From Nymphaea colorata (taxonomy: Eukaryota; Streptophyta; Magnoliopsida; Nymphaeales; Nymphaeaceae), in assembly GCF_008831285.2 (NCBI RefSeq), contig NC_045147.1, forward strand, positions 15,974,854-16,038,853: 64,000 nucleotides of DNA, read 5' to 3'. Of this stretch, positions 5,387 to 53,500 are shown piece after piece. A program made the position numbers and the translations under genes. The number at the start of each line of letters is the position of its first letter. Positions within the stretch are counted from its first letter, which is position 1. Below the pieces are notes generated by a model. It did no database searches, was not told the origin of the DNA, and saw nothing but the letters and a program-made list of their open reading frames with translations.

Positions 5387-8338
5387 GAATAAAAGCTTTC
5401 AATCACCTGAGAAAAAAGGAATTTCTAGAATATGAATGTGTGTGTAGAGTTGAATCTTTAAATAACTAGCTGTGTCAAAAGAACCAGTACATTGACCTCC
5501 GTTAATTATATAATATAAAACTTAGTTCATATTCAAAATAACCTTTTTCTTACATGGTAGTTTGATTATCTCATAGTTATGCATATAATAAACTGGTTGA
5601 TCTTAATTGGTATAGGGGATGGTTTGCTTAACAGTATCGGCAGTGCTGCCTAGTTTGAGGCCACCACCTTGCAGCATCGATGCAAGTGGGAAGAAGATCT
5701 GCCTAGAAGCGACCACGTCTCAGTTAATGGTTCTATATGTGTCACTGTTGCTTACAGCCTTAGGAGCCGGCGGAATCCGGCCATGCTGCGTCGCCTTCGG
5801 GGCCGACCAGTTCGACGAAAGGGACCCCAAGCAGAGCACAAAGATATGGAACTTCTTCAACTGGTACTACTTCTGCATGGGGTTCTCCATTCTACTTGCA
5901 GTGACCGTCATCGTCTACATCCAAGAGAACGTAGGATGGGGATGGGGGCTGGGCATCCCAACGGTCGCCATGTTCCTCTCCGTAATCGCCTTTGTATTGG
6001 GGTACCAACTCTACAGAAACTTGAAGCCCTCTGGTAGTCCATTAACCAGGCTGGTTCAGGTGTTGGTTGCAGCCACAAGGAAGAGAAAGCTGCCTAACGC
6101 GTCCGACCCGAGCTTGTTGTATGAGAATGAGGAACTGGATGCCCCAATCTCCATCTCCGGCGTTCTCGTCCACTCAGATCAATTCAAGTGAGTTTTTTGC
6201 TTTTCTTTAGTTTAACAGAATCTTTGAGTGATGGCTGCTCTGATCTTCAGTTGCTTTGTTGATAGTGAAAGCAGCTTTGATTTTTAGCAATCATGTTGCG
6301 GGACACTTCCAATTAGACCACAATAAATAAGCATCTTGGTCTTAAGAATAGGTCGATGGCATTTTATCAAAGGCACACTTTTTAATTGGTAACATGATTC
6401 GTTTAGCTTATTTGCAGCAAAGACTAACTGTGGTAGAAGGTTTCATTCGGAAAGCTTGCCTTGAAGTTAATTTGAACATTAAAAGCTAAGTTATATACAT
6501 GGATACTTATTAAAAAGGTCCACGTACTTGCGTCATCATATTCATTTCCAAAGTGGGTACTTTTTAGTGGGTACTTTTTACTTGAAACTGATTCAAACTA
6601 CTTAATTGTGTTTGATTTAAGTTTTTCCAACTCAGTTTTCATTTTGTTTTTAGAGTTACAGTTTATTAACATGTAATGTTTTTATTTATATCACTTGTTT
6701 ATTTAGATGTTGCTTTCATTTTATTTTATTTTTACTGAACCCCATGCATATATTTTTTAAAGTTACTGTGCTTATATTCATATCTCCATACCTATACCCG
6801 AACCATACCTATGCCCATGTAGCTTAGATTGAAAGATTTCAAAGCTTTTGGAAATCTTTGGTATATATATAGACAATATATTTTCTTTTTCAGAATGACC
6901 TTGAGTTACCTTCTGGTAAAGATAGAGAAATATATGGGAGGCACATACATTTTTCGAAGACATTTAACACTCGAAAGGGAAATACATATACCACAGATAT
7001 CAGGTTAACTCACATAGGTCGATACAGAAATCGGGAAACCTCACAAAGGTGGCGACAAGTTATTGCCTGTCAATCGACAAGCGAGTCACTATCGAAAAAA
7101 TTGGGAGAAAATGATGCCTGGTCTCGGATTTGTAGCAAAAGAAAGGTTCAACCCAAGAATGCATGCAATCAAGGGCCAAGGCATTTAATGTAACATTCTT
7201 GTGTAAAATTAACCTGAATGTGTCCAAAAGGAGTCATGGAACTGCAGCCAGTAGAAAAGAACGGCTACCCACCACCAATTGATGATGCCCACCATGTATT
7301 TTTTATGACAAAATTGGGAACAAGTTCCGTCATGTAAATTACTAAAATGTCCTTAAAACAAGAAAATTTGATCCTCTGCTGTTCTTTTTGTTATTCTTAT
7401 CGAAACGAAGAAAAGTTCAGAGGTGGAAATGATAAGTTTGACGTGGTGCTTAGTGATGATAATGATGCAGGTTCTTGGACAAGGCAGCGATCGTGAGCGG
7501 AGATGAGAGCCGGAAGGCGGCAGAGGACGTCAACCTGTGGAGGCTGGCCACCGTTCACAGGGTGGAGGAGCTCAAGTCAGTGATAAGAATGGTGCCCATC
7601 TGGTTCGCAGGCATCATCCCCATCACGGCGTCGGCGCAGCAGGGCACCTTCCAGCTGCAGCAGGGCCGCACCATGGACAGGCACCTCACCCCTTCCTTCC
7701 AGATCCCCCCGGGCTCCATGTCCGTCTTCACCTTGATCTCCATGCTCGCCACCATCTGGGCCTACGACCGCTTCCTCATCCCCCTCGCCCGCCGCTTCAC
7801 CGGCCTCGACCGCGGCATCTCCTTCCTCCACCGCATGGCCATCGGATTCGCTATCTCCGTCACCTCCACCTTCGCCGGGGGCTTCATTGAGCAGAGGCGC
7901 AAGCAAGCGGCGGCGGCCGCCGGCCTGCTCGACCACCCGGACCACACCATCCCCATTTCGGTTTTCTGGCTCATACCGCAGTACAGCCTGCATGGGATCG
8001 CCGAGGCCTTCATGTCCATCGGCCACCTTGAGTTCTTCTACGACCAGGCGCCGGAGAGCATGCGCAGTACGGCGACGGCCTTGTTCTGGACGTCAATATC
8101 CGCCGGCAGCTACTTGAACACCTTGCTGATCACCTTGGTGCACAGGACGACCGACTGGCTGCCTGATAATCTCAACAGGGGGAAGTTGGAATACTTTTAC
8201 TGGATCATCACCATGTTGCAGGTGTTCAATCTGTGCTACTACATGCTCTGTGTGCGTTACTACACCTTCAAGCCGCTGAAGCTGCGTCCTCTTTACTCTT
8301 CCGCCGACGATCATGTGGAGCTTGCCGCTGCTCCGTGA
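4160..8338 (+). CDS. NPF3.1: NRT1/PTR family (NPF) transporter, NPF3.1-type
   Basis: Proton-coupled major-facilitator membrane transporter; characterised NPF3.1 members move nitrate/nitrite and gibberellin-type hormones. I assign four exons: 4160-4238, 4516-4733, 5616-6187 and 7471-8338. All junctions are GT..AG and phases agree, giving 1737 nt and 578 residues, normal for NPF proteins. The start MADQQQEQNG is the ATG followed by the conserved KGGLITMPFIF. Exon 2 holds the TM1 motif NEVCEKL (residues 28-34); this is ExxEK rather than ExxER, as in the NPF3 members I know. Other family marks are GGIRPC, FGADQFDE, FNWYYFCMG, the charged central loop with RKRK, WLIPQY and FFYDQAPESMRS. The last exon is strongly GC-rich compared with its surroundings. 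Intron 2 carries a long AT microsatellite. Substrate is inferred from family only. Confidence 0.95.
5343..5384. repeat. (AT)21 microsatellite in NPF intron 2
   Basis: An uninterrupted AT dinucleotide run inside the second intron of the NPF gene. Likely length-polymorphic; no other role is visible. Confidence 0.9.
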
Positions 8339-20290: not shown

Positions 20291-22747
20291 ATGGCTGTCC
20301 TTTTGCTCATTGTTTTGATATTGGCTTCATGTTTGGTGCTAAGAGTGGCCGTGGAAACCATCTGTGTCTACTGGTTAACTCCCCGACGCATCAGACAGTT
20401 CATGGAAAAGCAAGGAGTTCGTGGACCTCACCCACGGTTTTTAGTTGGCAATCTTTTCCACATGGCTTCTCTTGTCCAGGAGACCACCTCCTCTGACATG
20501 GGCTCTGTTCACCATGACATCGTCGGAAGACTCTTGCCTCATTACGTCCTCTGGTCTAAGCTATATGGTAAAAAGAACAATAACCAAACAGTTAAAAAGG
20601 GAAAATAAAAAGATAAATTAACTTTTCAATTACGTCTTGATCCCTTTGCTCTTGTCTGTAACCTGCCTGCAAAACCAACTCGATTCCTTAACCATGAAGT
20701 TTGCTTCTGTTTGCAGGAAAAAGATTCATATATTGGTGGGGAGTTGAGCCAAGGATGTGTCTGTCAGAAACGGAGCTGATCAAAGAGCTGCTTTCTGCTA
20801 AAAATAGCCAAGTTTATGGAAAATCATGGCTGCAGAGGCAAGGGGCGAAGCACTTCATTGGGAAAGGCTTATTGATGGCCAATGGTGAAGAATGGGTCCA
20901 TCAACGCCACATAGCAGCACCGGCATTTCAAGCAGACAAGCTCAAAGTAAGAAAAGAAGGGAAACATAGTAGATTCTTCTTTTTAAATTGCTTGGAAGGA
21001 AGGATGCCCTATTGTTGGATCTGATTTTTTTTCTTCATTTTTCATTCTTGGCCTTGTTCTGGCTTTCCGGGACAGGGGCGCATTGGGCATATGGTAGACT
21101 GCACGAGGCGTGCATTGCAGTGCTTGCGTTCAGCAGCAGAATCGGGACAAACAGAGGTGGAAATCAATGGCTTCTTCAACAGGCTAACTGCAGACATCAT
21201 ATGTAGGACAGAGTTTGACATTAATTATGAGAAAGGCAAGAAGATTTTTGATCTCCTTACCACCCTGCAGCATCACTCTTCTAAGGCAAGCCGGCATCTA
21301 TGGTTTCCTGGTAGCAGGTGTATCTCTTTTAGCCATCACCATATCTTGATGATTTTCAACCTTCTTCACTTTTAGTTAGATCAAGGTTGTTTTCCGGAGA
21401 AGTTTGACATCTATCTATGCTCTGTTTGTAGGTTTTTTCCTAGTAGATACAACAGAGAAATCAAGAGGGTCAAGGTGGAAATAGAGTATCTACTGATGCA
21501 GATCATCGAGAGGAGGAGAGACGGAGTGGAAATAGGAAGGAGCGCCTCCTACGGCAATGGTTTGCTTGGGCTCTTATTGGAACAGGTTGAGAACAAGAAT
21601 TCCAAGTCTAACTTCACGATACAGCATCTTATAGACGAATGCAAGACGTTCTTTTTCACAGGCCACGAGACCACTGGTCTCCTTCTAACTTGGACAGTTA
21701 TGCTGCTTGCTTGCAACCCTTCTTGGCAAGAGAAAGCCAGGGAAGAAGTGCTCCGAGTCTGCCAAGGCTCACCTCCTTCTGCTGATCACCTCACGAAGCT
21801 CCCTCTGGTAAAGATTCCTAAGCAACTCACCACCATCTTCTGGTTTAGTAATTTTTTAACTGCTAATTCTGCAAAGCGAACTATGAATATGACTAGTTGT
21901 AAGATCCAAAGGTAGAGTCATGAGAGAGGAACAAAAGTAGACGACTCCTAGGGATCCCCAGAAGCCAAACAGAGAGAGCCCTATGATTTTATGGGAAGTC
22001 TAATCTTTAAAGCAGCCACGGCCACGTATTCACAACTTGGAACACTTCCGATTGGAAGGGTAGATTGTTTATTAATATTCAAAAGCCAGGGGAGATTAAT
22101 TATCGAGAGAAGCCATGTCTATATACTTGCATGCGTGTCGCTTATTGCGCAGAAGGATGAAACGTAGTGAACATGATGCTTTTCATTTTGACTGCATTGA
22201 TTGATTGATTGAAAGATTTTGAGTGAGAGATAAAGAAAGCAAGAATTTATTTATTAGTTTTAGAAGCATAGAGATGCCTTTACTGCCTTCCATGGATTGA
22301 CAGTTTGGCGATATTCTGGGTGTGCAGTTGGGCATGATTCTGAACGAGTCCTTGAGGCTGTACCCACCTGCTGCACTCCTACCCAGGCAAGCATTCGAGG
22401 ACACCATGCTGGGCGACCTCCAGATTCCCAAAGGTCTGTCCATATGGATCCCAGTGCTGGCGATCCACCACAGTGAGGAGCTCTGGGGGAAGGACGCCAA
22501 TGAGTTCAATCCAGAGAGATTCGCCGGCAGATCGTTTGCCTCAGGCAGGCACTTCATGCCATTTGCAGCAGGACCCAGGAACTGCATCGGCCAGGCCTTC
22601 GCCATCATGGAAGCCAAAGTGGTCTTGGCCATGCTGCTTTCCAGCTTCAGCTTCACTGTCTCTCACAACTACAGGCACGCACCCGTCTATGTCCTGACTT
22701 TGAAGCCTAAGCATGGAGTGCAGATCGACTTGAAGCCTCTTCAGTAG
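20291..22747 (+). CDS. CYP735A: Cytochrome P450 CYP735A, cytokinin trans-hydroxylase
   Basis: ER-anchored monooxygenase of the CYP735A subfamily. Known members hydroxylate the side chain of isopentenyladenine nucleotides to make trans-zeatin-type cytokinins. Five exons are assigned: 20291-20567, 20717-20946, 21076-21317, 21432-21807 and 22328-22747. All are GT..AG with consistent phases, giving 1545 nt and 514 residues, the family length. There is an N-terminal membrane anchor (residues ~2-25), then YWLTPRRIRQFMEKQGV and the Pro-rich hinge GPHPR. HHDIVGRLLPHYVLWSKLYG and LTADIICRTEF are close to Arabidopsis CYP735A1 as I remember it. Helix I is TGHETT (326-331), the ExxR is ESLR (382-385), followed by FNPERF. 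The heme loop FAAGPRNCIG has the Cys ligand at residue 461. Nothing looks broken. The subfamily call rests on remembered similarity along the whole protein. Confidence 0.93.
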
Positions 22748-38424: not shown

Positions 38425-38429
38425 ACACT
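38425..38429. repeat. Target site duplication ACACT (left)
   Basis: ACACT directly precedes the TG of the left LTR and recurs directly after the CA of the right LTR at 47977-47981. This is the five-base duplication expected of LTR-retrotransposon integrase. Confidence 0.9.
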
Positions 38430-41400
38430 TGGTAGGACCTAACTCCGGTATAGGCGACAGCCCAGTCCTAGAGTCGATCCTACACCCAAGATCCTCGTAG
38501 AGGGTCCACACGGGTCTAAAGACGCCTAAAGATTGAACCAACACAACTCAAAGAGGAAACTAAGGCTAGACTCAGACCAAACACACTCCTTGTAGCCGGA
38601 TCTTAGGCTCTAGGCCACCGAAAAACTACAGGAATACTGGACAAATGCGGAAGCGATTCAAAACTATGCAAGGAAAATAGCAAATCTAACTAGTCTAAAT
38701 GAAGTACCTCCCCAAGGCTTGCTCGGGGTTCATTTGATGAATCTTCTGGAATTCTTTGATGATCTGCTGTAGGTGCTGTTGAGGATGAATTCCAGACGTC
38801 AGGTTGTAGCTGAGAAAATCGGGACACCAAGGTGGAAGGTGCTGCAACGCCAAGTAAGACGCCAAGTTGGAGAAGATCGCTGGTAAAGTCTTTGATGTCT
38901 TCTCTTCAACTCGGTTGCTGCTGCTGGTTTTGACGGAGCTGATACAAATGCTGCTGCTCCGGGTGTGGCAGTAGGCTCTAGATATAGCTGAGAGAGAGCC
39001 TCTTAGCTCAGCCCACCTGGCTGAGTGCCGTGGTAGCACACGGGATCCGGTTGCTTGGTGATAGCAACCTCAATTCGCTTGGGCGAGTGGATGAAATGCC
39101 CAAGGGTAGCACACCAAATGTTGTAGTCGTGGCTGGGGATGGGTGGATTCAGCTTGGTCTTAGCTGAGGAATTACCTAACTACAGTCAATAGAGGAAAGC
39201 TCGGCCGTAGAGCTTGGTAATGATCCTAAGTGTGGCTGGCTTAGGGCCGGTTAGGAGCGATAGGGGCTTGGACGGCTTCGGCTACGGTGTAAGGGAAGAT
39301 GATCTAAGGGTGTGAGGTCTAGAATGAGGTGGCTTAAGACAAGGGAATGTGGGATGTTGATTAGGAACTGGTGGTTAGGTTCAAGGATGATTGAACGAGT
39401 GGCTTGGGTTTAAATGAGAGAGCTAATGAGGAACTAAGGAGGGTTAGGGATCACGTGAGTGAGTTTGACGTGGGATCAAAAGGTGGACTCCTACACTTGA
39501 ACCTAGGATAATCCTCTAGATCTAAGGCTGAAAATTCAAAGGTGGTAAGTGGGATGTGATGTGGCTGGGATCTAGGGATGGTTAATGATTGAATCACCTA
39601 AACTAAAGAGCAAATCCCTCCAAATGTGGGCACTAGTGGCGCCGGCTCCTCCAATGTAGTCAAATGTGGCGAGGTGGCGCCTTGTGGAATGATGATTCCA
39701 AATGTGGGGATTCTCTTCCAAATCACGTGCAAATCAAGGGTCAGATCTTCTCCTAAGGATCTGGATGAAGGGCTAGGAGAGACTTAGATGGGTAAGGATG
39801 AAGCTCGTACCACTTTTTGAAGCTAGAATGTAGGAGTTTCCCCTTAATTCTCGCCTAGAAAATCTCCTCTCCATGCGATATCTCCTTGGAGTACTTTTGG
39901 ACGGACTTACCCTTGGAAATGATGGTCCCACTTCGTGGCAAGGAAGGGCACTTTGGTCCTTGGGTGATGATGACCAGAATCCCCCAAATGTGGCCGGAAT
40001 TATGGCAGAGGTCGCCGGAAAACCAGAAGTTCCCGGTGACTTGGTGCTTGCTATCGCCTAGGCCGTTCTTCGCGAAACCAATGTGTATCTTCTTCTTTCT
40101 TTGCGTGCAATCACCTTATATGGTCCATTCCCATGTCCAAGATGGTCTCACCGTGATTTCTTGAGGATGGGATTCTGATTTTGCCGGCGAAATTCCAGAG
40201 ATGGACCGCGGATGAAAACTAGAATCGATCGACTCTTCTTGTGCCGTTTCCTTGAGTGATTTCTCAACTAGGAAAGCCTCAATGCCTAGGATCTTCTAAG
40301 ACACGTAAAACTTAGTTTAAATCAAGTTTCAACCGTGGAAAAGAAGGGAATCTCGGCTGTGACTCGAGACTTCTCCTCTTCTTGTAAGTCAAACCTTGGA
40401 TCAAACCAAACCAACGTAGTTGCTTAGCTTTCACCTTAGGAATCCAAGAACTAACCTTGTATGAGGAAACCGTGGGTTTGCTGTCCTTCCTTGGATGAAG
40501 ACGCAGCCTCCTTGTTCAACTTAGGCCTCTAATATCTCTGATGTAGCAGAGATATTGCACCCAAGACGTGGCTGGGTAGATGCGAAGATGAAGACGATGA
40601 TAACTCCTAGGGCCGTGGCTCACCCAAGAGAAAGCCCTCACCTTCTTCTTCAACGAGAATTGATGTAAATGAAAGAGAGGGGAGATAGTGAGGAGTTGGG
40701 AAGGAGAGGAGAGGAAGACGTGAGGGGGAAGGGGAAGTAGAGGGCCAGCATGCTGGTCTTGGGAGAAGAGATTGGAGGGAACGTGAGAGAGAGAGAGAGA
40801 GAGAGACACGAGAAGAGAGAGAGAGAAGTGAGGAGAGAGAGAGAGCAAAGAAGCAAATGACCTTGATTTCCCAAAATTCCATCCATTTACACATGAATCA
40901 AAACCTTATATACATGAGTACATAAATCTGGTTCCCATGCATGGAACCAGCCCAAATCCAAATCCAGAACATGCTAAAGCAAAACGGATCCAAGGCACAA
41001 CCCGCCTTGGTAAGTTTGAATCCAAAACCGAATTGGCGCAAACTCAAATAAAGCAAATCAAGAAGTGAAAAACGGCTAAGTCCTAGCTAGACGCCCCTTG
41101 AGCCTTGTGAGCTCAAGGTGGGGACCTCGTCCGGGTTGCCGCCCAAACTTCGGACTTGACACATCCCTTAACCTCATTGAGCTGAGCTCAATTCAGCCAA
41201 GAGACCTCCCTAGACTCGTCCTAGACCGACTCTAGAGACTTGGGTTTCGATACGACTCAAGAATGGACCATGGCCTATACCAGAGAAGTCCTATGGATCT
41301 AGTATCCTAACTCGCGGATTCTCTCAATTGCTGGTCTTCACCTAGTTCATTCATGTCCTAGAGCCGTTGCATATCCTCCCGCACCTCCCATTGCATTTGC

Positions 41401-41495
41401 TCTAGGCTCGAAGTTTAATTCCATTGAGCCGTGATCTCTCACTGTGGCCGTGCCTTTGGCCTTGGTTAGGCCTACTCGGACTAAGGCTCGTATCA
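38430..41495 (-). repeat. 3' LTR (left copy)
   Basis: 3066 bp, TG..CA ends, almost identical to the right copy. On the element's strand it has U3 at the right end, a TATA-like TATATAAGG (40904-40912), then a CT-rich run (GA on the plus strand, 40788-40850) that would fall just inside the transcript, then a ~2.4 kb R-U5 region. Open frames of 78-114 codons inside occur identically in both LTRs and have no recognised domain. Confidence 0.93.
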
Positions 41496-41497
41496 GA

Positions 41498-41510
41498 TCC
41501 ACCCTCCTTA
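41498..41510 (-). promoter_or_regulatory. Polypurine tract of the retrotransposon
   Basis: Read on the minus strand, TAAGGAGGGTGGA directly precedes the 3' LTR with only TC between. This is the expected position and composition for plus-strand DNA priming. Confidence 0.75.
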
Positions 41511-41533
41511 AATCGAGCTTGTCCTCAAGCTCA

Positions 41534-44164
41534 TTATGAACTTGTTTCTTGGTGGCTCTGACGCACGCAGTCATCTTTCACCTTGTGTTTCCTCCCTGGT
41601 CCATAGTCTCTGGGTAACACCTTCACTGAGTTCCTAAGATGGAGGAAACATCTTCTTGGGCCTCTTGAATAAACCTTGAACATGGCCCTTTTAACTCTGA
41701 GTTTAGCTATGGTCAATGTGTCTGGACCATAGTCTCGAGGTAACTGTCCAATTCGCTTCATTGGTTGCCCAAGCAACCTTTCATCATTCTGGATCTCATT
41801 CGTTGACATGGCTTTACCACGGTCATGTGGTTGCCACTTTCTACCACCATGTTGTAGTGGTTTTTGCACTTGTTTAGGACTATAATCCCTTGGGAGTTGC
41901 CCTATAGCCCTCTTTTGCAGCCCTTGTAGCTGCTCAATAGTGCCCTCCTGATGTGCGAGGGCCTTCCCTCTGTCGTGGGCTTGCCATAGGCGCCCACCTG
42001 CTTGTAGTACTTGTCGGTTGATGATGTAGTCTTTCTGTTTACAATTACTCTGTACTGCCCATTGCACCTCAGTTGCGCTCATGTCGTTGGAGTCAATTGA
42101 TGTTGGTGACTCCGACTTGTAATCCTCACATGAACTCGAGGGGTTCCACATCTCTTCATTGCAATTTGGTGACTCTGAGTACTGGAATGCTCTCCATCTT
42201 TTTGGGTAGAGTTTTTCATTCTTATCTCTGTGAATCACCTCTTCATTTTGTTGTTGTCCACCCTCCTTAGGATGTATCATCTGTTGTTGTAATAGAGAAT
42301 GGGTGGACAAAGATCTTTCCTTGTTCTCATACGATTCAATGTGCCCACTCTTAGCCATTGGGCCTTCACGATTCACTCGTGGATCTTCTTGAGGAGCCTT
42401 ATATTGGTTGAATGATGGTCTTGGCTCCAAAGTAATAGTGTGATCGTCATCAGAACTGCACAAGAAATCATCTTCAAACTCAAAGAAGAATCCTGCTAAT
42501 TCCTCTTGCACTTCCTCTTGCCACTTTTGGATGCAACGAAGCTTAGCATGTTGATCACTTTCACTCATCTCAATAGGGGCTAACCACGTATCCTCGCTCT
42601 GTGGATGATTCTGACAAGAGGGTATTCCTTCAAGTTGCTCCACCCGTGGTCCGATACCTTGGTCTTGGTGTGAGCACGTCATGTGGAAAGCTAACTCTTG
42701 GGTTGCTTGTAGTTGTAACTCTTCCACAATCTGTGAGCAGTCAGTTGAATCCGCTCCACCCTCCTTATGATCTGCCTTACCTTCTATTGTGGAAGGATAT
42801 GATGGATGATCCTCGCTTCGCTGGCTGGACTCTTCATCTCCTTCTATTTCCATGGGATCATTAGAGTCCATGCTGCTTGCCTTTTCTACATCATTCCTTT
42901 GATCTTCAAGGTTAAGATCTTCTGGCATTTGACAACGGATTAGCTCCACCTTGTCTTCTGGCTGTATGATCTCAAGAGGTTGAAGCTCGCTTGATTCTTC
43001 CACTTCCATCATGTTGGGTGAAGCTAGAGCTGTACACACTAAAGATTCTTCTTTGTACGTATCTAATGCTTGGTTGGGACTAGACGCGTGCATTGAGTTT
43101 GTAGAGATTGAAGCTCTTTCTTCATGTGATCCTAAAGAATCTTCACTTGGAAGTGTCTCTTCAATAGATTCGCACTCTTGACACTTGCTTTCTATTTCAG
43201 CCAATAACTCATTGGTAGTCCATGTCTTCAATGATTCGCCATCACTTGAGTTGTTGGATGGCTCCTCAACTGTAGCTTGATCATGAACACCCTTGCCCTT
43301 GAGGCTATTGTTCGGCACTTCACATTTGATTGTCTCTACCGCTTGGTGCATTTCATCTCTCTTGTTCCTGCTTACTTCGTCCCTTTTCTTAGGTTGATAA
43401 TTGGTCTGAGGGACCTCGGATTTTTGAGTAAGGCCTTTAGTTGAGTAGGCCTTGCGGTAGGCTTTAGTGTTGTCAGTTTTCTTTGGAGGTGATTGTGACA
43501 CCGCACTCATGATGCCTTGGTTCTTGCTTCCGTTGCCTTTGCTCATGTGCTCCGTGCGAGGTGGCGGAGTAGCTGGTCCGAGTAGCTCTTTGCTCTTCAT
43601 GTTGGTCGGAACCATGCCCTTGGACGTGTTGCTCCTTAACTCCACGTGAGGCTTCTCTTGTTTCACGTTGTCCAATATCTCATCCATCTTTGAGAGCGCT
43701 TGTCGTATCATCTCTTCAATGTTAGGAGATGACTTTCCTGGGTTACTATTTCCAGGTTTCCCTACTTGTTTGACGGGTTTGGGTGCTGGGATTTCTTCCA
43801 ACACAAACTTATGACTCATGTCTCCTATTTGTATCACTTCTCCTGGATAAACTTGTAAAAGCTCACCCAGGTTGACTACTCTTCCTGCAACCCTAAGTCG
43901 ACCCACTAAGGTCCTATTGGTGATCCTAATGTTACAGGTCCCCTTGTCCACTTCAATCACACAATGATAACCCATTACACTGACATCTCGTAGGATGATG
44001 TCGCATCTCGGGTTTTGCCCAATCAAGAAACTGATGAACTGTGGGCCGTAACTCCAATCTTCTCTGTGAACTAAAATCTTCTCTTCCATGAGTTTTCCGT
44101 AAGAATAGGTGCTAAACACTAAATCAACATCTAAACTTCTGGGATACGCACCTTCTTCCATCAT
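41534..44164 (-). CDS. Retrotransposon-borne FHA-like domain protein, 876 aa
   Basis: The sole long ORF of the element, uninterrupted from ATG (44164) to stop. Residues ~43-123 read as an FHA fold: FISFLIGQNPRCDIILRDVS, H67 in the SxxxxHxxIE block, ITNRT in place of the usual STNGT, then VAGRVVNLGELLQVYPGEV and IQIGD. Two core phosphothreonine-contact positions appear changed: the usual GR arginine is Gln50, and the Ser three residues before His67 is Met64. Residues ~135-290 are basic and low in complexity. Residues ~300-580 are acidic and Ser/Glu-rich, with an aromatic-acidic patch FFFEFEDDFLCSSDDD near 559-574. The C-terminus (723-857) holds two copies of a ~50-residue repeat (GGRxWQxHDRGKA ... 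IGQLPRDYxP) and a third partial LPRDYGPG. I see no gag, pol or zinc knuckle. It could be a captured host domain, an unusual ORF1, or a strongly diverged structural protein. Open for 876 codons, so probably translated. Confidence 0.8.
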   Translation of the reverse strand: MMEEGAYPRSLDVDLVFSTYSYGKLMEEKILVHREDWSYGPQFISFLIGQNPRCDIILRDVSVMGYHCVIEVDKGTCNIRITNRTLVGRLRVAGRVVNLGELLQVYPGEVIQIGDMSHKFVLEEIPAPKPVKQVGKPGNSNPGKSSPNIEEMIRQALSKMDEILDNVKQEKPHVELRSNTSKGMVPTNMKSKELLGPATPPPRTEHMSKGNGSKNQGIMSAVSQSPPKKTDNTKAYRKAYSTKGLTQKSEVPQTNYQPKKRDEVSRNKRDEMHQAVETIKCEVPNNSLKGKGVHDQATVEEPSNNSSDGESLKTWTTNELLAEIESKCQECESIEETLPSEDSLGSHEERASISTNSMHASSPNQALDTYKEESLVCTALASPNMMEVEESSELQPLEIIQPEDKVELIRCQMPEDLNLEDQRNDVEKASSMDSNDPMEIEGDEESSQRSEDHPSYPSTIEGKADHKEGGADSTDCSQIVEELQLQATQELAFHMTCSHQDQGIGPRVEQLEGIPSCQNHPQSEDTWLAPIEMSESDQHAKLRCIQKWQEEVQEELAGFFFEFEDDFLCSSDDDHTITLEPRPSFNQYKAPQEDPRVNREGPMAKSGHIESYENKERSLSTHSLLQQQMIHPKEGGQQQNEEVIHRDKNEKLYPKRWRAFQYSESPNCNEEMWNPSSSCEDYKSESPTSIDSNDMSATEVQWAVQSNCKQKDYIINRQVLQAGGRLWQAHDRGKALAHQEGTIEQLQGLQKRAIGQLPRDYSPKQVQKPLQHGGRKWQPHDRGKAMSTNEIQNDERLLGQPMKRIGQLPRDYGPDTLTIAKLRVKRAMFKVYSRGPRRCFLHLRNSVKVLPRDYGPGRKHKVKDDCVRQSHQETSS

Positions 44165-44894
44165 TCTTGCCTTCTCTTAAATCAAAACAAATGCTTAAAA
44201 ACTTTCTAAGCTATCTATTTCAAACACCAAACTGAACTACTAAAAGCTGAAAACCACGACACTTGTAAATTCTGTAACTCTCTAACTCGATGTCCAAAAA
44301 TCACGAAACTTGGTAGCAAAATACTAGACACGATAAGGAATCCAACGCCACCAAGATCAAGCTCTAACTCTGCTCCAGGAAAGCACTCGTTCTTCTGAAA
44401 GTCACGCCTGGGCTTGCTCTTCAACCGCGCAGGACTCCCCCAGTGATAGGGGTCCACTCAAAAAATCATAACTTTTCACCCGTAACTCAAAAAAATCTGA
44501 AATTTGGACTGGAGATTCCTGAGACGTAGGCGCTTCCAACGAGCCTAACCTTGACCAATTCCGATGCCGGATCTGACAGCGCCGGCCAACGGAATCCGGC
44601 GTAGTTTCTGGTTTTTCAGAAACTGAAAAAAATGCAGGCTGAAGAGGATGAGTTTCTGCTATGCTACCATCAAACCAAACTAACACTGCTGGAATCTGAA
44701 AACTGAGTGCGGCGGCCTCTCAAGATGGCTCTGATACCAAACTGATAGGTTTGGTATCAGCCGGATAAGTTTGGAACTCTCCTTTCCAACTTTCACCCGC
44801 TTTTACCAAAATCGATCTTTCTTGCACTTATGAGCAACATAAACTCTAGAATTTGAATTCACAAGATGTAAACAAGCAACGGAATCCTCCACGT
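44165..44894 (-). other. Leader region of the retrotransposon
   Basis: About 730 bases between the primer binding site and the ORF start. It contains short open frames in two phases but no recognised domain. A second primer-binding-site-like copy lies at 44726-44739, with a 12-bp-stem hairpin at 44731-44760 (arm TGATACCAAAC, loop TGATAG, arm GTTTGGTATCA, plus a closing C-G). Confidence 0.6.
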
Positions 44895-44908
44895 TGGCTC
44901 TGATACCA
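44895..44908 (-). promoter_or_regulatory. Primer binding site (initiator Met tRNA)
   Basis: On the element's strand TGGTATCAGAGCCA begins three bases after the 5' LTR. It complements the 3' end of plant initiator methionine tRNA, the usual primer for plant LTR retrotransposons. This fixes the orientation of the element as minus. Confidence 0.9.
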
Positions 44909-44911
44909 AAT

Positions 44912-47900
44912 TGGTAGGACCTAACTCCGGTATAGGCGACAGCCCAGTCCTAGAGTCGATCCTACACCCAAGATCCTGGTAGAGGGTCCACACGGGTCTA
45001 AAGACGCCTAAAGATTGAACCAACACAACTCAAAGAGGAAACTAAGGCTAGACTCAGACCAAACACACTCCTTGTAGCCGGATCTTAGGCTCTAGGCTAC
45101 CGAAAAACTACAGGAATACTGAACAAATGCGGAAGCGATTCAAAACTATGCAAGGAAAATAGCAAATCTAACTAGTCTAAATGAAGTACCTCCCCAAGGC
45201 TTGCTCGGGGTTCATTTGATGAATCTTCTGGAATTCTTTGATGATCTGCTGTAGGTGCTGTTGAGGATGAATTCCAGACGTCAGGTTGTAGCTGAGAAAA
45301 TCGGGACACCAAGGTGGAAGGTGCTGCAACGCCAAGTAAGACGCCAAGTTGGAGAAGATCGCTGGTAAAGTCTTTGATGTCTTCTCTTCAACTCGGTTGC
45401 TGCTGCTGGTTTTGACGGAGCTGATACAAATGCTGCTGCTCCGGGTGTGGCAGTAGGCTCTAGATATAGCTGAGAGAGAGCCTCTTAGCTCAGCCCACCT
45501 GGCTGAGTGCCGTGGTAGCACACGGGATCCGGTTGCTTGGTGATAGCAACCTCAATTCGCTTGGGCGAGTGGATGAAATGCCCAAGGGTGCACACCAAAT
45601 GCTGTAGTCGTGGCTGGGGATGGGTGGATTCAGCTTGGTCTTAGCTGAGGAATTACCTAACTACAGTCAATAGAGGAAAGCTCGGCCGTAGAGCTTGGTA
45701 ATGATCCTAAGTGTGGCTGGCTTAGGGCCGGTTAGGAGCGATAGGGGCTTGGACGGCTTCGGCTACGGTGTAAGGGAAGATGATCTAAGGGTGTGAGGTC
45801 TAGAATGAGGTGGCTTAAGACAAGGGAATGTGGGATGTTGATTAGGAACTGGTGGTTAGGTTCAAGGATGATTGAACGAGTGGCTTGGGTTTAAATGAGA
45901 GAGCTAATGAGGAACTAAGGAGGGTTAGGGATCACGTGAGTGAGTTTGACGTGGGATCAAAAGGTGGACTCCTACACTTGAACCTAGGATAATCCTCTAG
46001 ATCTAAGGCTGAAAATTCAAAGGTGGTAAGTGGGATGTGATGTGGCTGGGATCTAGGGATGGTTAATGATTGAATCACCTAAACTAAAGAGCAAATCCCT
46101 CCAAATGTGGGCACTAGTAGCGCCGGCTCCTCCAATGTAGTCAAATGTGGCGAGGTGGCGCCTTGTGGAATGATGATTCCAAATGTGGGGATTCTCTTCC
46201 AAATCACGTGCAAATCAAGGGTCAGATCTTCTCCTAAGGATCTGGATGAAGGGCTAGGAGAGACTTAGATGGGTAAGGATGAAGCTCGTACCACTTTTTG
46301 AAGCTAGAATGTAGGAGTTTCCCCTTAATTCTCGCCTAGAAAATCTCCTCTCCATGCGATATCTCCTTGGAGTACTTTTGGACGGACTTACCCTTGGAAA
46401 TGATGGTCCCACTTCGTGGCAAGGAAGGGCACTTTGGTCCTTGGGTGATGATGACCAGAATCCCCCAAATGTGGCCGGAATTATGGCAGAGGTCGCCGGA
46501 AAACCAGAAGTTCCCGGTGACTTGGTGCTTGCTATCGCCTAGGCCGTTCTTCGCGAAACCAATGTGTATCTTCTTCTTTCTTTGCGTGCAATCACCTTAT
46601 ATGGTCCATTCCCATGTCCAAGATGGTCTCACCGTGATTTCTTGAGGATGGGATTCTGATTTTGCCGGCGAAATTCCAGAGATGGACCGCGGATGAAAAC
46701 TAGAATCGATCGACTCTTCTTGTGCCGTTTCCTTGAGTGATTTCTCAACTAGGAAAGCCTCAATGCCTAGGATCTTCTAAGACACGTAAAACTTAGTTTA
46801 AATCAAGTTTCAACCGTGGAAAAGAAGGGAATCTCGGCTGTGACTCGAGACTTCTCCTCTTCTTGTAAGTCAAACCTTGGATCAAACCAAACCAACGTAG
46901 TTGCTTAGCTTTCACCTTAGGAATCCAAGAACTAACCTTGTATGAGGAAACCGTGGGTTTGCTGTCCTTCCTTGGATGAAGACGCAGCCTCCTTGTTCAA
47001 CTTAGGCCTCTAATATCTCTGATGTAGCAGAGATATTGCACCCAAGACGTGGCTGGGTAGATGCGAAGATGAAGACGATGATAACTCCTAGGGCCGTGGC
47101 TCACCCAAGAGAAAGCCCTCACCTTCTTCTTCAACGAGAATTGATGTAAATGAAAGAGAGGGGAGATAGTGAGGAGTTGGGAAGGAGAGGAGAGGAAGAC
47201 GTGAGGGGGAAGGGGAAGTAGAGGGCCAGCATGCTGGTCTTGGGAGAAGAGATTGGAGGGAACGTGAGAGAGAGAGAGAGAGAGAGACACGAGAAGAGAG
47301 AGAGAGAAGTGAGGAGAGAGAGAGAGCAAAGAAGCAAATGACCTTGATTTCCCAAAATTCCATCCATTTACACATGAATCAAAACCTTATATACATGAGT
47401 ACATAAATCTGGTTCCCATGCATGGAACCAGCCCAAATCCAAATCCAGAACATGCTAAAGCAAAACGGATCCAAGGTACAACCCGCCTTGGTAAGTTTGA
47501 ATCCAAAACCGAATTGGCGCAAACTCAAATAAAGCAAATCAAGAAGTGAAAAACGGCTAAGTCCTAGCTAGACGCCCCTTGAGCCTTGTGAGCTCAAGGT
47601 GGGGACCTCGTCCGGGTTGCCGCCCAAACTTCGGACTTGACACATCCCTTAACCTCATTGAGCTGAGCTCAATTCAGCCAAGAGACCTCCCTAGACTCGT
47701 CCTAGACCGACTCTAGAGACTTGGGTTTCGATACGACTCAAGAATGGACCATGGCCTATACCAGAGAAGTCCTATGGATCTAGTATCCTAACTCGCGGAT
47801 TCTCCCAATTGCTGGTCTTCACCTAGTTCATTCATGTCCTAGAGCCGTTGCATATCCTCCCGCACCTCCCACTGCATTTGCTCTAGGCTCGAAGTTTAAT

Positions 47901-47976
47901 TCCATTGAGCCGTGATCTCTCACTGTGGCCGTGCCTTTGGCCTTGGTTAGGCCTACTCGGACTAAGGCTCGTATCA
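44912..47976 (-). repeat. 5' LTR (right copy)
   Basis: 3065 bp, partner of the left LTR. As the upstream LTR it should drive transcription of the element; the TATA-like TATATAAGG is at 47385-47393 on the minus strand. Differences from the left copy that I could read include C/G near 38494, an absent A in AAGGGTAGC, and single changes near 45607, 46118, 47477, 47804 and 47872. Confidence 0.93.
47385..47393 (-). promoter_or_regulatory. TATA box in the 5' LTR
   Basis: TATATAAGG on the element's strand, about 585 bases into the LTR, followed some 40-130 bases later by a long CT-rich run. A reasonable core promoter for the full-length transcript; inferred by sequence only. Confidence 0.5.
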
Positions 47977-47981
47977 ACACT
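47977..47981. repeat. Target site duplication ACACT (right)
   Basis: Matches the five bases before the left LTR; see the left copy. Confidence 0.9.
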
Positions 47982-50580
<2,599 letters not shown>

Positions 50581-53500
50581 ATGTCGTGGTCTCTCTTTCA
50601 GAGGAGGATCGCTCTCGCTCACTCAAGGATCGATAGTCTCAATCGACTGTTCTCCCACTCTCCTCTTGGATTGAGGTAACCGCCCGCCAATATGCTGCTA
50701 CTCCAACTAAAGGAAACCCATTAGCAAGAAAATGTCTTTCATTATTTGGGCTTCCTTCCCTCACTGCTTTGGAGTTTTTGGGTTTTCAGAGGAATGAGGA
50801 ATGCGAGGAATGGTCGAGTTTCGGATTCGTTTCCGCCCGTGAGTGATGGCAGGCAATCGATCAGTCATATTACGTATGGAGGACTTCCGACTCGGTCGAT
50901 GGTCCGCTCGGGTTCTTCGTGCATGGACGTCGCGTCAGTGAGGGCATTGATTTCCGGAAGAGATCGCCGGTGGTACTCAGCTCGTTCGGAGGGGGTTTCT
51001 CGGTTTCGTGCGGCGAGGGAGGGTAGTCAATCAATGCTTCTGTATCTGTTTGCTTTGGTTGTGGCGATGGTGGGTTCGACGTATGCAGCGGTTCCATTGT
51101 ACAGGAAGTTCTGCCAAGCCACTGGTTATGGTGGAACTGTTCAGAGGAAAGAGGTAACCATAAATTGTCCAGAAATCGCTTTTTTCCTACACAAAAATAG
51201 ATGTGTGATTGGGAAAACTAGTGTCTTGGTTCATCACTGGTTCGTATGATCACTGGTTCGTATGAGTTTTGTCTCCCCTGTTTGCGAACGTGGAAGTACG
51301 AAAGTCACTAAATTTTGTACAAATGGAGCGATTTAGGACGAAAATTTAACAAGCTGGCATCTTTATATTAATGGTTGCTGTTCAGTATGGCTGGTTTCCT
51401 TGCTTAGTTTGAGTGTGGTGGAACACATTGCTGTAGAAAATAATAGTTGGTCACCATATATTTCTGAGTATTTCTTATACATTGTGACAAGGTCTAAGTC
51501 TCTGCAGACTGTTGAGGAGAAAATTGCACGGCATGCAGAGGAGGGAACTACCACTTCAAGGTACATTGGCTGTTCGTGACATGCTCCATTTTGGTTTCTG
51601 TTTGAGATTTTGCACTTTCGTAGGAATGTTCTGACTGTTCATTGTTCCAGAGAATGGAAACAATTCCTGTTAAATAGGTCAGCTAAAGTAATTCGTTTCT
51701 GTCAGGCAAAAACCTTAAATGTTCAAATTGTTCTTGTAAGAGAAGTGTATTTTGTGTGTTTTTGTTCAAATCAGAAGCCTACATCCAATATGGATGTGAC
51801 CAAGGTCCAAGACGAAAAGGAAAGGGGGTGGGTGGTGGGGTTGGGGGTTGGCCTGCAACACACAAGCTAGAGTTGAAAACTGGCAACCATGTTGGACATG
51901 ATTGTCGGTTATATGGGATGCTCTAAGAAGACATAAAGATGTTTGTTGGATGGTGGGTGAAGGTATTGTGGTTAATTATGTTGTTACTCAACTGAGAGTC
52001 TGAGACTATGGTGGGCTGCTGAGATATAAAGATGTTTGCTGGATTATCCTGAAAGACAAAGTATGAAACTAACCTATTTAACGGTTGTCTGGGGACAAAC
52101 TTTTCTATGACCAGGGACATTACCTGAATAGGTCGTTTACTTGTTTCATACAAGCTAATATAAGAGATACAACTAGATGAACTCTGACACTGACTGGATT
52201 ATGTGTAGCTTGCTGGATATAGTTGGGGCATATGGCTTCTATGCATGCCCTGCTCTTTTCTCCTTTTGACGTTCCTTACTTTCATCTTTACCTTTCTCTC
52301 TTTGCTTGTTATAGAAGAAATTTCAAATGAAAGAAACTTTTTCTTGTAATGTTTCCTTGCTTGGGGTGCTTGGTCTTGGGGGTTTCCTGTGAAAAGAATA
52401 ATGCTTTTCCAACGTATATTACTGAAGCAATTGGTAAAGCCTAATTTGTTTTCTGAGTTGCTAGTTTGCTGGAGTTGTCTGCACCACATGTCTATGAAGT
52501 CCAATTTAAGATCATATCCTACATAGTACTGTAACATACAGACGCATGAACCAAAAAGCTTGAAAGATATTGTATCCTGATAGACAACCCCCACCATTGT
52601 CTCTTCTGGTTTATCAGTAGAAAGTCAGAAACTAAGAAGTTGATGACTAGAAACAGGTCTATATGATGTGAAGTACAGAGCCCAAAATGGCCTCTGTTGC
52701 GGTGGGCTGATTACACTACCAAATAGTAAGACATGAATGCACATACCTTTCCTTCTTGGTTTGTTAAACTGATAAGCTCTTTCGTTGCAGGGTACTCACT
52801 GTTCAGTTCAATGCAGATGTTGCTGATGGCATGCCATGGAAGTTTGTTCCGACACAACGAGAAGTACTCTAATTCCACAAACAGTAAACAGTAGCCGTCT
52901 AGAACCTTTCCAGAAAACAGAGTGCACTAAGTCATCTTTCTCTTATTTTCCAGGTAAGAGTTAGGCCAGGAGAAAGTGCCCTTGCTTTTTATACTGCTGA
53001 AAATCTAAGTTCGGCACCTATAACTGGTGTCTCCACATACAATGTTACACCAATGAAGGTAATATTCACTTGAATTTGTTGATTGGTCGTCTCATATTGG
53101 TTTTTTACTTGTTGTAGTTAGATTGCAACATACACATAAATGCATGTTGTCCCACACACCCAAGATATTTGGTCTTATAAGATAGTAGAAAATATCAGTC
53201 TTGGTTGGCGTCAGTTTGGTTACTCCTTGTCACTGTTTCTTCATTTTGATTTTTATGCTTTTGTTAGTGGGACCTTTGTTTATGATGAATGAGAAAAAAA
53301 GTAGTGTTCTACTTGGCTAACAATCGGCTTTCAGGCTGCAATTTACTTCAATAAGATCCAGTGCTTCTGCTTTGAGGAACAACGTCTTCTCCCAGGGGAG
53401 CAAATTGACATGCCTGTAAGCATTGTGTTTTTCTATCTTACCTCTTTGATCTTTTCTGGAGGAGCAATGTTGAATCACATGATGATGTTGGGTGGTCTCA

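Follow-up and report, generated by a model that had tools for sequence, protein, structure and literature searches.

What would keep a long, intact reading frame inside a retrotransposon that encodes none of the enzymes of its own replication? The question is raised by a locus on contig NC_045147.1 of the water lily Nymphaea colorata (assembly GCF_008831285.2), within the 64,000-nt stretch from 15,974,854 to 16,038,853 of the forward strand, hereafter the window. Window positions 38430-47976 hold a complete long terminal repeat (LTR) element of 9,547 bp, whose sense strand is the minus strand and in which an open reading frame (ORF) with an FHA fold occupies the place of gag-pol. We consider it likely that the element is a non-autonomous satellite of water-lily Ty3/gypsy chromovirus-like elements, equipped with an accessory protein of its own. 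Its parts, including the target site duplication (TSD), primer-binding site (PBS), polypurine tract (PPT) and 5' untranslated region (UTR), are as follows, in window positions.

38425-38429, no strand: TSD ACACT, on the 3' side in sense, equal to 47977-47981
38430-41495, minus strand: 3' LTR, 3066 bp, 99.7% identical to the 5' LTR
41496-41510, minus strand: terminal PPT TAAGGAGGGTGGATC, abutting the 3' LTR
41534-44164, minus strand: sole ORF, 876 codons, from the ORF listing and homologues
41597-41674, minus strand: conserved C-terminal motif VYSRGPRRCFLHLRNSVKVLPRDYGP, amino acids (aa) 831-856, from between-family alignments
42257-42269, minus strand: internal PPT copy 2, TAAGGAGGGTGGA, read as KEGG, aa 633-636
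42755-42767, minus strand: internal PPT copy 1, TAAGGAGGGTGGA, read as KEGG, aa 467-470
43787-44128, minus strand: FHA-fold domain, aa 13-126, from profile and structure comparison
44223-44749, minus strand: 5' UTR, homologous by alignment to the 5' UTR of gag-pol locus L033
44727-44739, minus strand: second PBS copy, with which an upstream inverted repeat can pair, aligning with the LTR-end/PBS junction of L033
44896-44908, minus strand: PBS TGGTATCAGAGCC, tRNA-Met type, three bases past the 5' LTR
44912-47976, minus strand: 5' LTR, 3065 bp, from the LTR alignment
47977-47981, no strand: TSD ACACT, on the 5' side in sense

The hallmarks of an LTR retrotransposon are all present, namely paired LTRs with TG..CA ends (TGATACG...CTACCA), a TSD reading AGTGT in sense and ACACT on the plus strand, a PBS, and a PPT, TTAAGGAGGGTGGATC, that immediately precedes the 3' LTR. 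With 8 substitutions in 3,065 aligned sites and one 1-bp indel between the LTRs (K 0.0026), and at 7e-9 to 1.3e-8 substitutions per site per year, the insertion would be about 0.1-0.2 million years old. The PBS is of the tRNA-Met type (PMC2829016). An extra PBS copy lies 169 bp downstream of the first. What is missing are the enzymes: with the element translated along its full length in all three sense frames (X at stops), no gag, protease, reverse transcriptase (RT), RNase H or integrase model matches at E<=0.5, and the only Pfam matches at that threshold are FHA and the FHA-like Yop-YscD_cpl, the latter below its cutoff.

The ORF itself far exceeds chance, considering that the longest stop-free run is 210 codons when the internal region is imitated 300 times by a first-order Markov model. 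Its FHA match (PF00498) scores 25.6 bits over a cutoff of 20.7, and FHA is above the Pfam cutoff in 7 of the 8 ORFs scanned (the window ORF, P0002, P0003, P0004, L029, L031 and L018); no NCBIfam match was obtained. A PDB profile match and structure comparison of a predicted model likewise give the FHA beta-sandwich, although the model of the ORF, with a mean predicted local distance difference test score of 40.9, is poor beyond the FHA part, and no inference is drawn for the remainder. The original prediction had thus described the locus accurately: its element coordinates are exact to the base, its LTRs, TSD, PBS and PPT all lie where it had put them, and the absence of enzymes and the intact 876-codon ORF starting with an FHA-like domain are both borne out. 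The second PBS copy and the internal PPT copies are additions to it. FHA domains read phosphothreonine through the residues GR, SxxH and N. Here G-R has become G-Q, G-S or G-T, other residues stand in for the serine and the asparagine, and the histidine of SxxH is retained except in L025; given these losses, the protein probably acts as a plain protein-binding module. Toward the other end of the protein, aa 690-861 are 36-53% identical between families, and in the internal repeats LPRDY(G/S)P and GGRxWQxHDRGKA of the window ORF, synonymous distances are saturated and nonsynonymous ones low.

The element is one of many. In the window's own genome (407.8 Mb), an ORF search gave at least 91 matching pieces among the best 52 of 320 candidates that were scored, and the 20 stretches fetched fall into family A, to which the window's element belongs (n=8), family B (n=7) and family C (n=5). 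All three are LTR families with an FHA ORF. Two further FHA types occur at PPT junctions, one in L029 and L030 (broken) and one in L031 (626 open codons), their 5' ends being read in part; the broken copy L030 has no Pfam match, FHA included. Protein similarity between these families and types is roughly 30-40%. Family A has 9 loci among the matches listed, the window included. Four of its 8 fetched copies align across all 9.5 kb, with a perfect TSD in L009 and L014 and 4 of 5 bases matching in L010 and L015, and the remaining 4 are rearranged; the double PBS spaced 169 bp apart is present in all 8. For families B and C, with LTRs of about 3.4 kb and 4.0-4.2 kb, respectively, the 5' LTR, PBS, ORF and start of the 3' LTR were located in 8 of 12 stretches. 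LTR pairs in 12 further copies carry 0 to 78 substitutions, and 0-3 in 6 of them (the 3' LTR is incomplete for 8 of the 12); these 6 and the low LTR divergence of the window's element point to recent movement. Among the matches listed, family A is dispersed over C1, C2, C4, C6, C7, C8, C9 and C10, while many of those to families B and C and to the partner RT, loci L022, L024, L026 and L028 included, are clustered at C3:28.4-30.9 Mb (2.5 Mb) and on small contigs.

Beyond this genome, the relatives found in protein databases are four hypothetical proteins, all from Nymphaea thermarum, and protein searches requiring shared 5-residue words returned no homologue outside Nymphaea among their matches. 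In P0004, like stretches flank the ORF (80% over 184 columns), as translated LTRs would. P0001, in which a copia-type gag is joined to 177 residues of the FHA-ORF C-terminal part, was considered as a genuine gag-FHA fusion and not accepted: its match to the ORF is limited to aa 685-861, which, together with the copia-type gag, suggests a merged gene model, a nested insertion being the other option.

Which element, then, could supply the missing enzymes? The 17-mer spanning the PPT/3' LTR junction, TAAGGAGGGTGGATCTG (a junction type of LTR elements abbreviated AGGAGGGTGG), occurs at 98 sites in the genome, compared with 0 for a reversed-pattern control. Four such sites were fetched away from the listed FHA matches; three (L029-L031) carry FHA ORFs or their C-terminal part, and the fourth, L032, carries pol, with Pfam matches in the order RVT_1 (6.7e-36), RNase H, integrase zinc finger and SH3_Tf2-1, the integrase core rve being below its cutoff. 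Just upstream, L033 encodes gag (7.3e-15; Retrotrans_gag above its cutoff, Ty3_capsid below) and protease. The 5' UTR of the window's element aligns with that of L033 along 510 bp at 80.6% identity (E 2e-137), a further 36 bp aligning at 92%, and the window LTR is matched by parts of the L034 and L036 LTRs at up to 82% over 98 bp. The element's PPT/3' LTR junction and its leader are hence common to a gag-pol locus of the same genome. In the simplest reading of the alignment between the second PBS and the LTR-end/PBS junction of L033, the element would have arisen when an older leader of the L033 lineage was joined to a different LTR-PBS end.

An RT search with L032, in which the best 82 of 4839 candidates were scored, yielded open frames of up to 1917 codons, and six further pol ends were read. 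Three of these (L037, L038, L041) have the family-B junction CAGGAGGGTGGATC/TGATACGG, and L039 and L042 have the variant CAGCGTGGTGGATC/TGATACGG. L037 and L038 are the ends of pol in loci whose open frames run to 1712 and 1713 aa, and they carry a B-type PPT and LTR start; their LTRs match that of family-B copy L018 at 77-78% over 568 bp, and L043 does so at 70% over 1.1 kb. The L037/L038 pol frame terminates in ..AWGQA..EGGSDT.., much like the FHA ORFs of the relatives with their ..AWGQA..KEGG.. end. Considering these shared A-type and B-type junctions and LTRs, at least two of the FHA families have their matches in different gag-pol groups. L040, the sixth pol end, belongs with L048 (C3:14316170-14319800) to a distinct, related gag-pol group with 71% RT identity, another PPT, AGGGAGGGGGAATC, and no internal PPT at the protease-RT junction. 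The partner C-termini contain a segment, ..HEVLIEWEG..GTSWE.., which we take to be chromodomain-like in appearance, and no Pfam Chromo match was obtained at E<=0.01 in those of L037, L039 and L041. Judging from gene order, SH3_Tf2-1, the tRNA-Met PBS and the look of that segment, the partner appears to be a chromovirus-like Ty3/gypsy lineage. A tRNA-Met PBS is used by most chromoviruses and not by gypsy elements outside them (PMC6317226).

The PPT is present in more than one copy. The core TAAGGAGGGTGGA is found at two in-frame sites within the ORF and once more in the terminal PPT, when 0.0001 copies would be expected in the internal region under a first-order Markov model. Among the 8 fetched family-A loci, 6 have three copies and the others two; all 5 family-C stretches have three exact copies of TAAGGAGGGTGG; and in family B, three cores with at most one mismatch are present in the 5 of 7 stretches examined. 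At the protease-RT junction of gag-pol loci, the core is exact in 3 of 8 and has one mismatch in another of the 8. Within the ORF, the core is frozen at the DNA level, its synonymous positions being the same in the families compared, with variation beginning immediately behind it.

Two alternative readings of the ORF bear on these data. Might the internal copies be a protein motif, KEGG, and no additional PPTs at all? KEGG is indeed in frame and kept in the families compared (as QEGG at site 1 of B), but the conservation extends to bases that the protein does not require: at site 1, all 4 families have the same third bases (T, G, G, T) in the preceding codon and in the K/Q, E and first G codons, as do all 3 families aligned at site 2 (E_L031 is gapped there), whereas the following glycine codon varies. 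A single codon is shared across four families in just 11 of 64 invariant degenerate columns, and these 11 probably include two PPT codons. Moreover, the internal string equals the window's terminal PPT, which is non-coding, and it recurs in the gag-pol loci, making a purely protein-level explanation unlikely. The other alternative is that the protein is a capsid whose fold has been misread as FHA, which would turn the element into a TR-GAG with an unusual gag. The position of the ORF after the 5' UTR, where gag would sit, fits this idea, and TR-GAGs are a known class with one ORF. It is nevertheless very improbable, given that profile, PDB profile and structure comparison all support FHA, that the window ORF has no gag match up to E=1, and that L033 has a separate gag unlike it; the gag capsid that the original prediction had named as fatal to itself did not appear.

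A further question is whether the ORF does anything for the elements that carry it. By codon comparison of 14 pairs in all, the ORF is conserved between families: in the 3 of 6 pairs with computable synonymous divergence (dS 2.0-3.0), the ratio of nonsynonymous to synonymous divergence (dN/dS) is 0.22, 0.23 and 0.29. Within families, it is 0.42 for L018/L021 of family B and 0.46, 0.61 and 0.69 in family C, the B and C frames extending in part into the 3' LTR. The rival view holds that gag-pol was lost from an element that also had an extra FHA ORF, and that the ORF is a relic hitch-hiking in deletion derivatives. The ORF does terminate near the PPT, like known 3' ORFs, and 7 of 9 family-A loci are interrupted, with dN/dS of 0.89-1.02. 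Set against a relic are the between-family ratios, the absence of stops from all 8 group C FHA pieces and from 8 of the 11 rows that match at about 32% identity over nearly the full length (counts that exclude shorter rows, some with stops), and the architecture of the elements. In the 8 located family-B and -C stretches, the PBS and ORF are about 0.5-1 kb apart and the interval from ORF to 3' LTR has no space for gag-pol, and in the gag-pol loci that were read, no FHA ORF lies before gag (L033) or between pol and PPT (L032, L037-L042). On balance, we think it improbable that the ORF is a relic.

Several observations weigh against the satellite reading. Stops interrupt the frames of the L032/L033 locus, which is the one locus read of only three RT loci (of 82 scored) that, by eye, lie beside an exact copy of the window family's 17-bp junction; long open frames are shown for family-B-type ends only, which are known from their pol part. 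Half of the gag-pol loci examined (4 of 8) have no internal PPT within 3 mismatches. The frame is uninterrupted over its full length in just 2 of 9 family-A loci (the window and C2), and the family-A ratios of 1.02, 0.89 and 0.89 carry no sign of selection, although with 10-18 differences each they are uninformative. For the other family-B pair the ratio is 0.83, from 4 differences; dS between families comes close to saturation or reaches it (3 of 6 pairs are saturated); and the family-C ORF L024 scores 17.5 for FHA against the cutoff of 20.7. The interrupted family-A frames and the sub-cutoff family-C score slightly lower our confidence in a satellite and raise that in a relic. Further copies, for which the original prediction had proposed a search, were found as several families in the same genome, and the ORF is not confined to one copy, recurring in three LTR families and two more types; the central view of that prediction, a non-autonomous LTR element with a non-gag FHA ORF outside the known classes, is supported. 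Of the autonomous partner it had called for, a gag-pol lineage with the same junction and 5' UTR exists, and the frames of L032/L033 are interrupted; dN/dS points to constraint between families (0.22-0.29), less so within B and C (0.42-0.83), and is about 1 within A.

Assuming that the element is a satellite, the partner's particles would package its LTR-driven RNA, as the shared UTR suggests, the partner's RT would copy that RNA from the PBS and PPTs, with the internal PPTs supplying extra plus-strand start sites, and the partner's integrase would insert the cDNA via the matching ends. The FHA protein could be translated from the element's own RNA and act in favour of this RNA or of the cDNA copied from it, for instance through contact with the partner's Gag or integrase complex or with a host factor. 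Our preferred guess is that it is such a protein-binding accessory, and the fact that a non-enzymatic protein is conserved where every enzyme has to be borrowed argues for some benefit to the element. More tentatively, and as a possibility to which we would not commit, these families might represent a new class of retro-satellite that lacks gag-pol, has a dedicated FHA-based helper and reinforced plus-strand priming, and diversified alongside chromovirus-like hosts, with the protein giving it an edge in packaging, nuclear entry, targeting or anti-silencing.

At the locus itself, an inverted repeat, CTGATACCAAA/TTTGGTATCAG (window 44727-44760), lies upstream of and overlaps the second PBS, which a hairpin would cover. 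A stable 5' UTR hairpin was considered and set aside: the repeat is real, but a 261-nt fold is not clearly beyond shuffled sequences (z -1.04). No Rfam family reaches its gathering threshold within the element, and the window has no second copy of it at E<=1e-3. The translations of adjacent window ORFs at 5619-8338, 21475-22747 and 50746-51249 give the impression of a peptide/nitrate transporter, a cytochrome P450 and COX11.

In the common picture, non-autonomous elements are deletion remnants without a product worth keeping, and this group differs. It combines one non-gag protein, recognisable across deep divergence, with identifiable partners in one genome, and thereby offers a testable satellite-helper pair and a natural case for what an accessory protein contributes when the enzymes come from elsewhere.

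How do these elements compare with known ones? LARDs have no coding capacity between their LTRs, TR-GAGs have gag as their single ORF, and TRIMs are very small. By these definitions, the element is like TR-GAGs and LARDs in its LTRs, PBS, PPT, large size, lack of pol and presumed reliance on a partner, and differs in that the retained ORF is FHA and not gag. Its 876-codon ORF with conserved relatives sets it apart from LARDs, the FHA fold, without a gag match and unlike the L033 gag, from TR-GAGs, and its 9547 bp from TRIMs, a misfit to all three that had been predicted. TelKA2n of bdelloid rotifers (PMC5408684) is likewise non-autonomous, without most of pol and part of gag and with an extra ORF, but that ORF is env-like and in an animal, as opposed to the several diverged families with an FHA ORF here. 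In plants, a non-canonical protein domain is fixed in LTR elements in Ogre (plant mobile domain), Retand (Transposase_28), Athila, SIRE and the orchid AlkB elements (PMC7264820, PMC6317226, PMC11963269, PMC9289625), where the ORF is mostly beside gag-pol, though gag or other domains are missing from some Retand clusters. The text of section 12 of PMC9289625, where unusual domains are listed, does not name FHA, and the screen of that study used RT as the marker; since elements such as ours have no RT, screens of this kind miss them, which constitutes a blind spot. The available parts of PMC7264820, PMC9289625, PMC2829016, PMC6317226, PMC11963269, PMC5408684 and PMC6394760 contain no FHA ORF in a plant LTR element, and a literature search combining FHA domain, retrotransposon and LTR gave no such element by title or abstract opening, within a scope that left aside preprints and most subscription papers. 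The multiple PPTs and PBS type suggested a Sirevirus satellite, as Sireviruses also have several identical PPTs and a tRNA-Met PBS, and CA-ATTTGG-TATCAGAGC here resembles their CA/ATTGG-TATCAGAGC (PMC2829016). This was rejected: their PPT octamer AGGGGGAG is absent from both strands of the element, its junction is TC/TG and not the Sirevirus attachment site AT/TG, and its partner is Ty3/gypsy and not Ty1/copia. The element also differs from Sireviruses in having PPTs within an ORF. Finally, Ty1, HIV-1, Athila4 and Calypso share with the element an additional internal PPT (PMC2829016), whereas here there are two in-frame copies, and they belong to a non-autonomous element.
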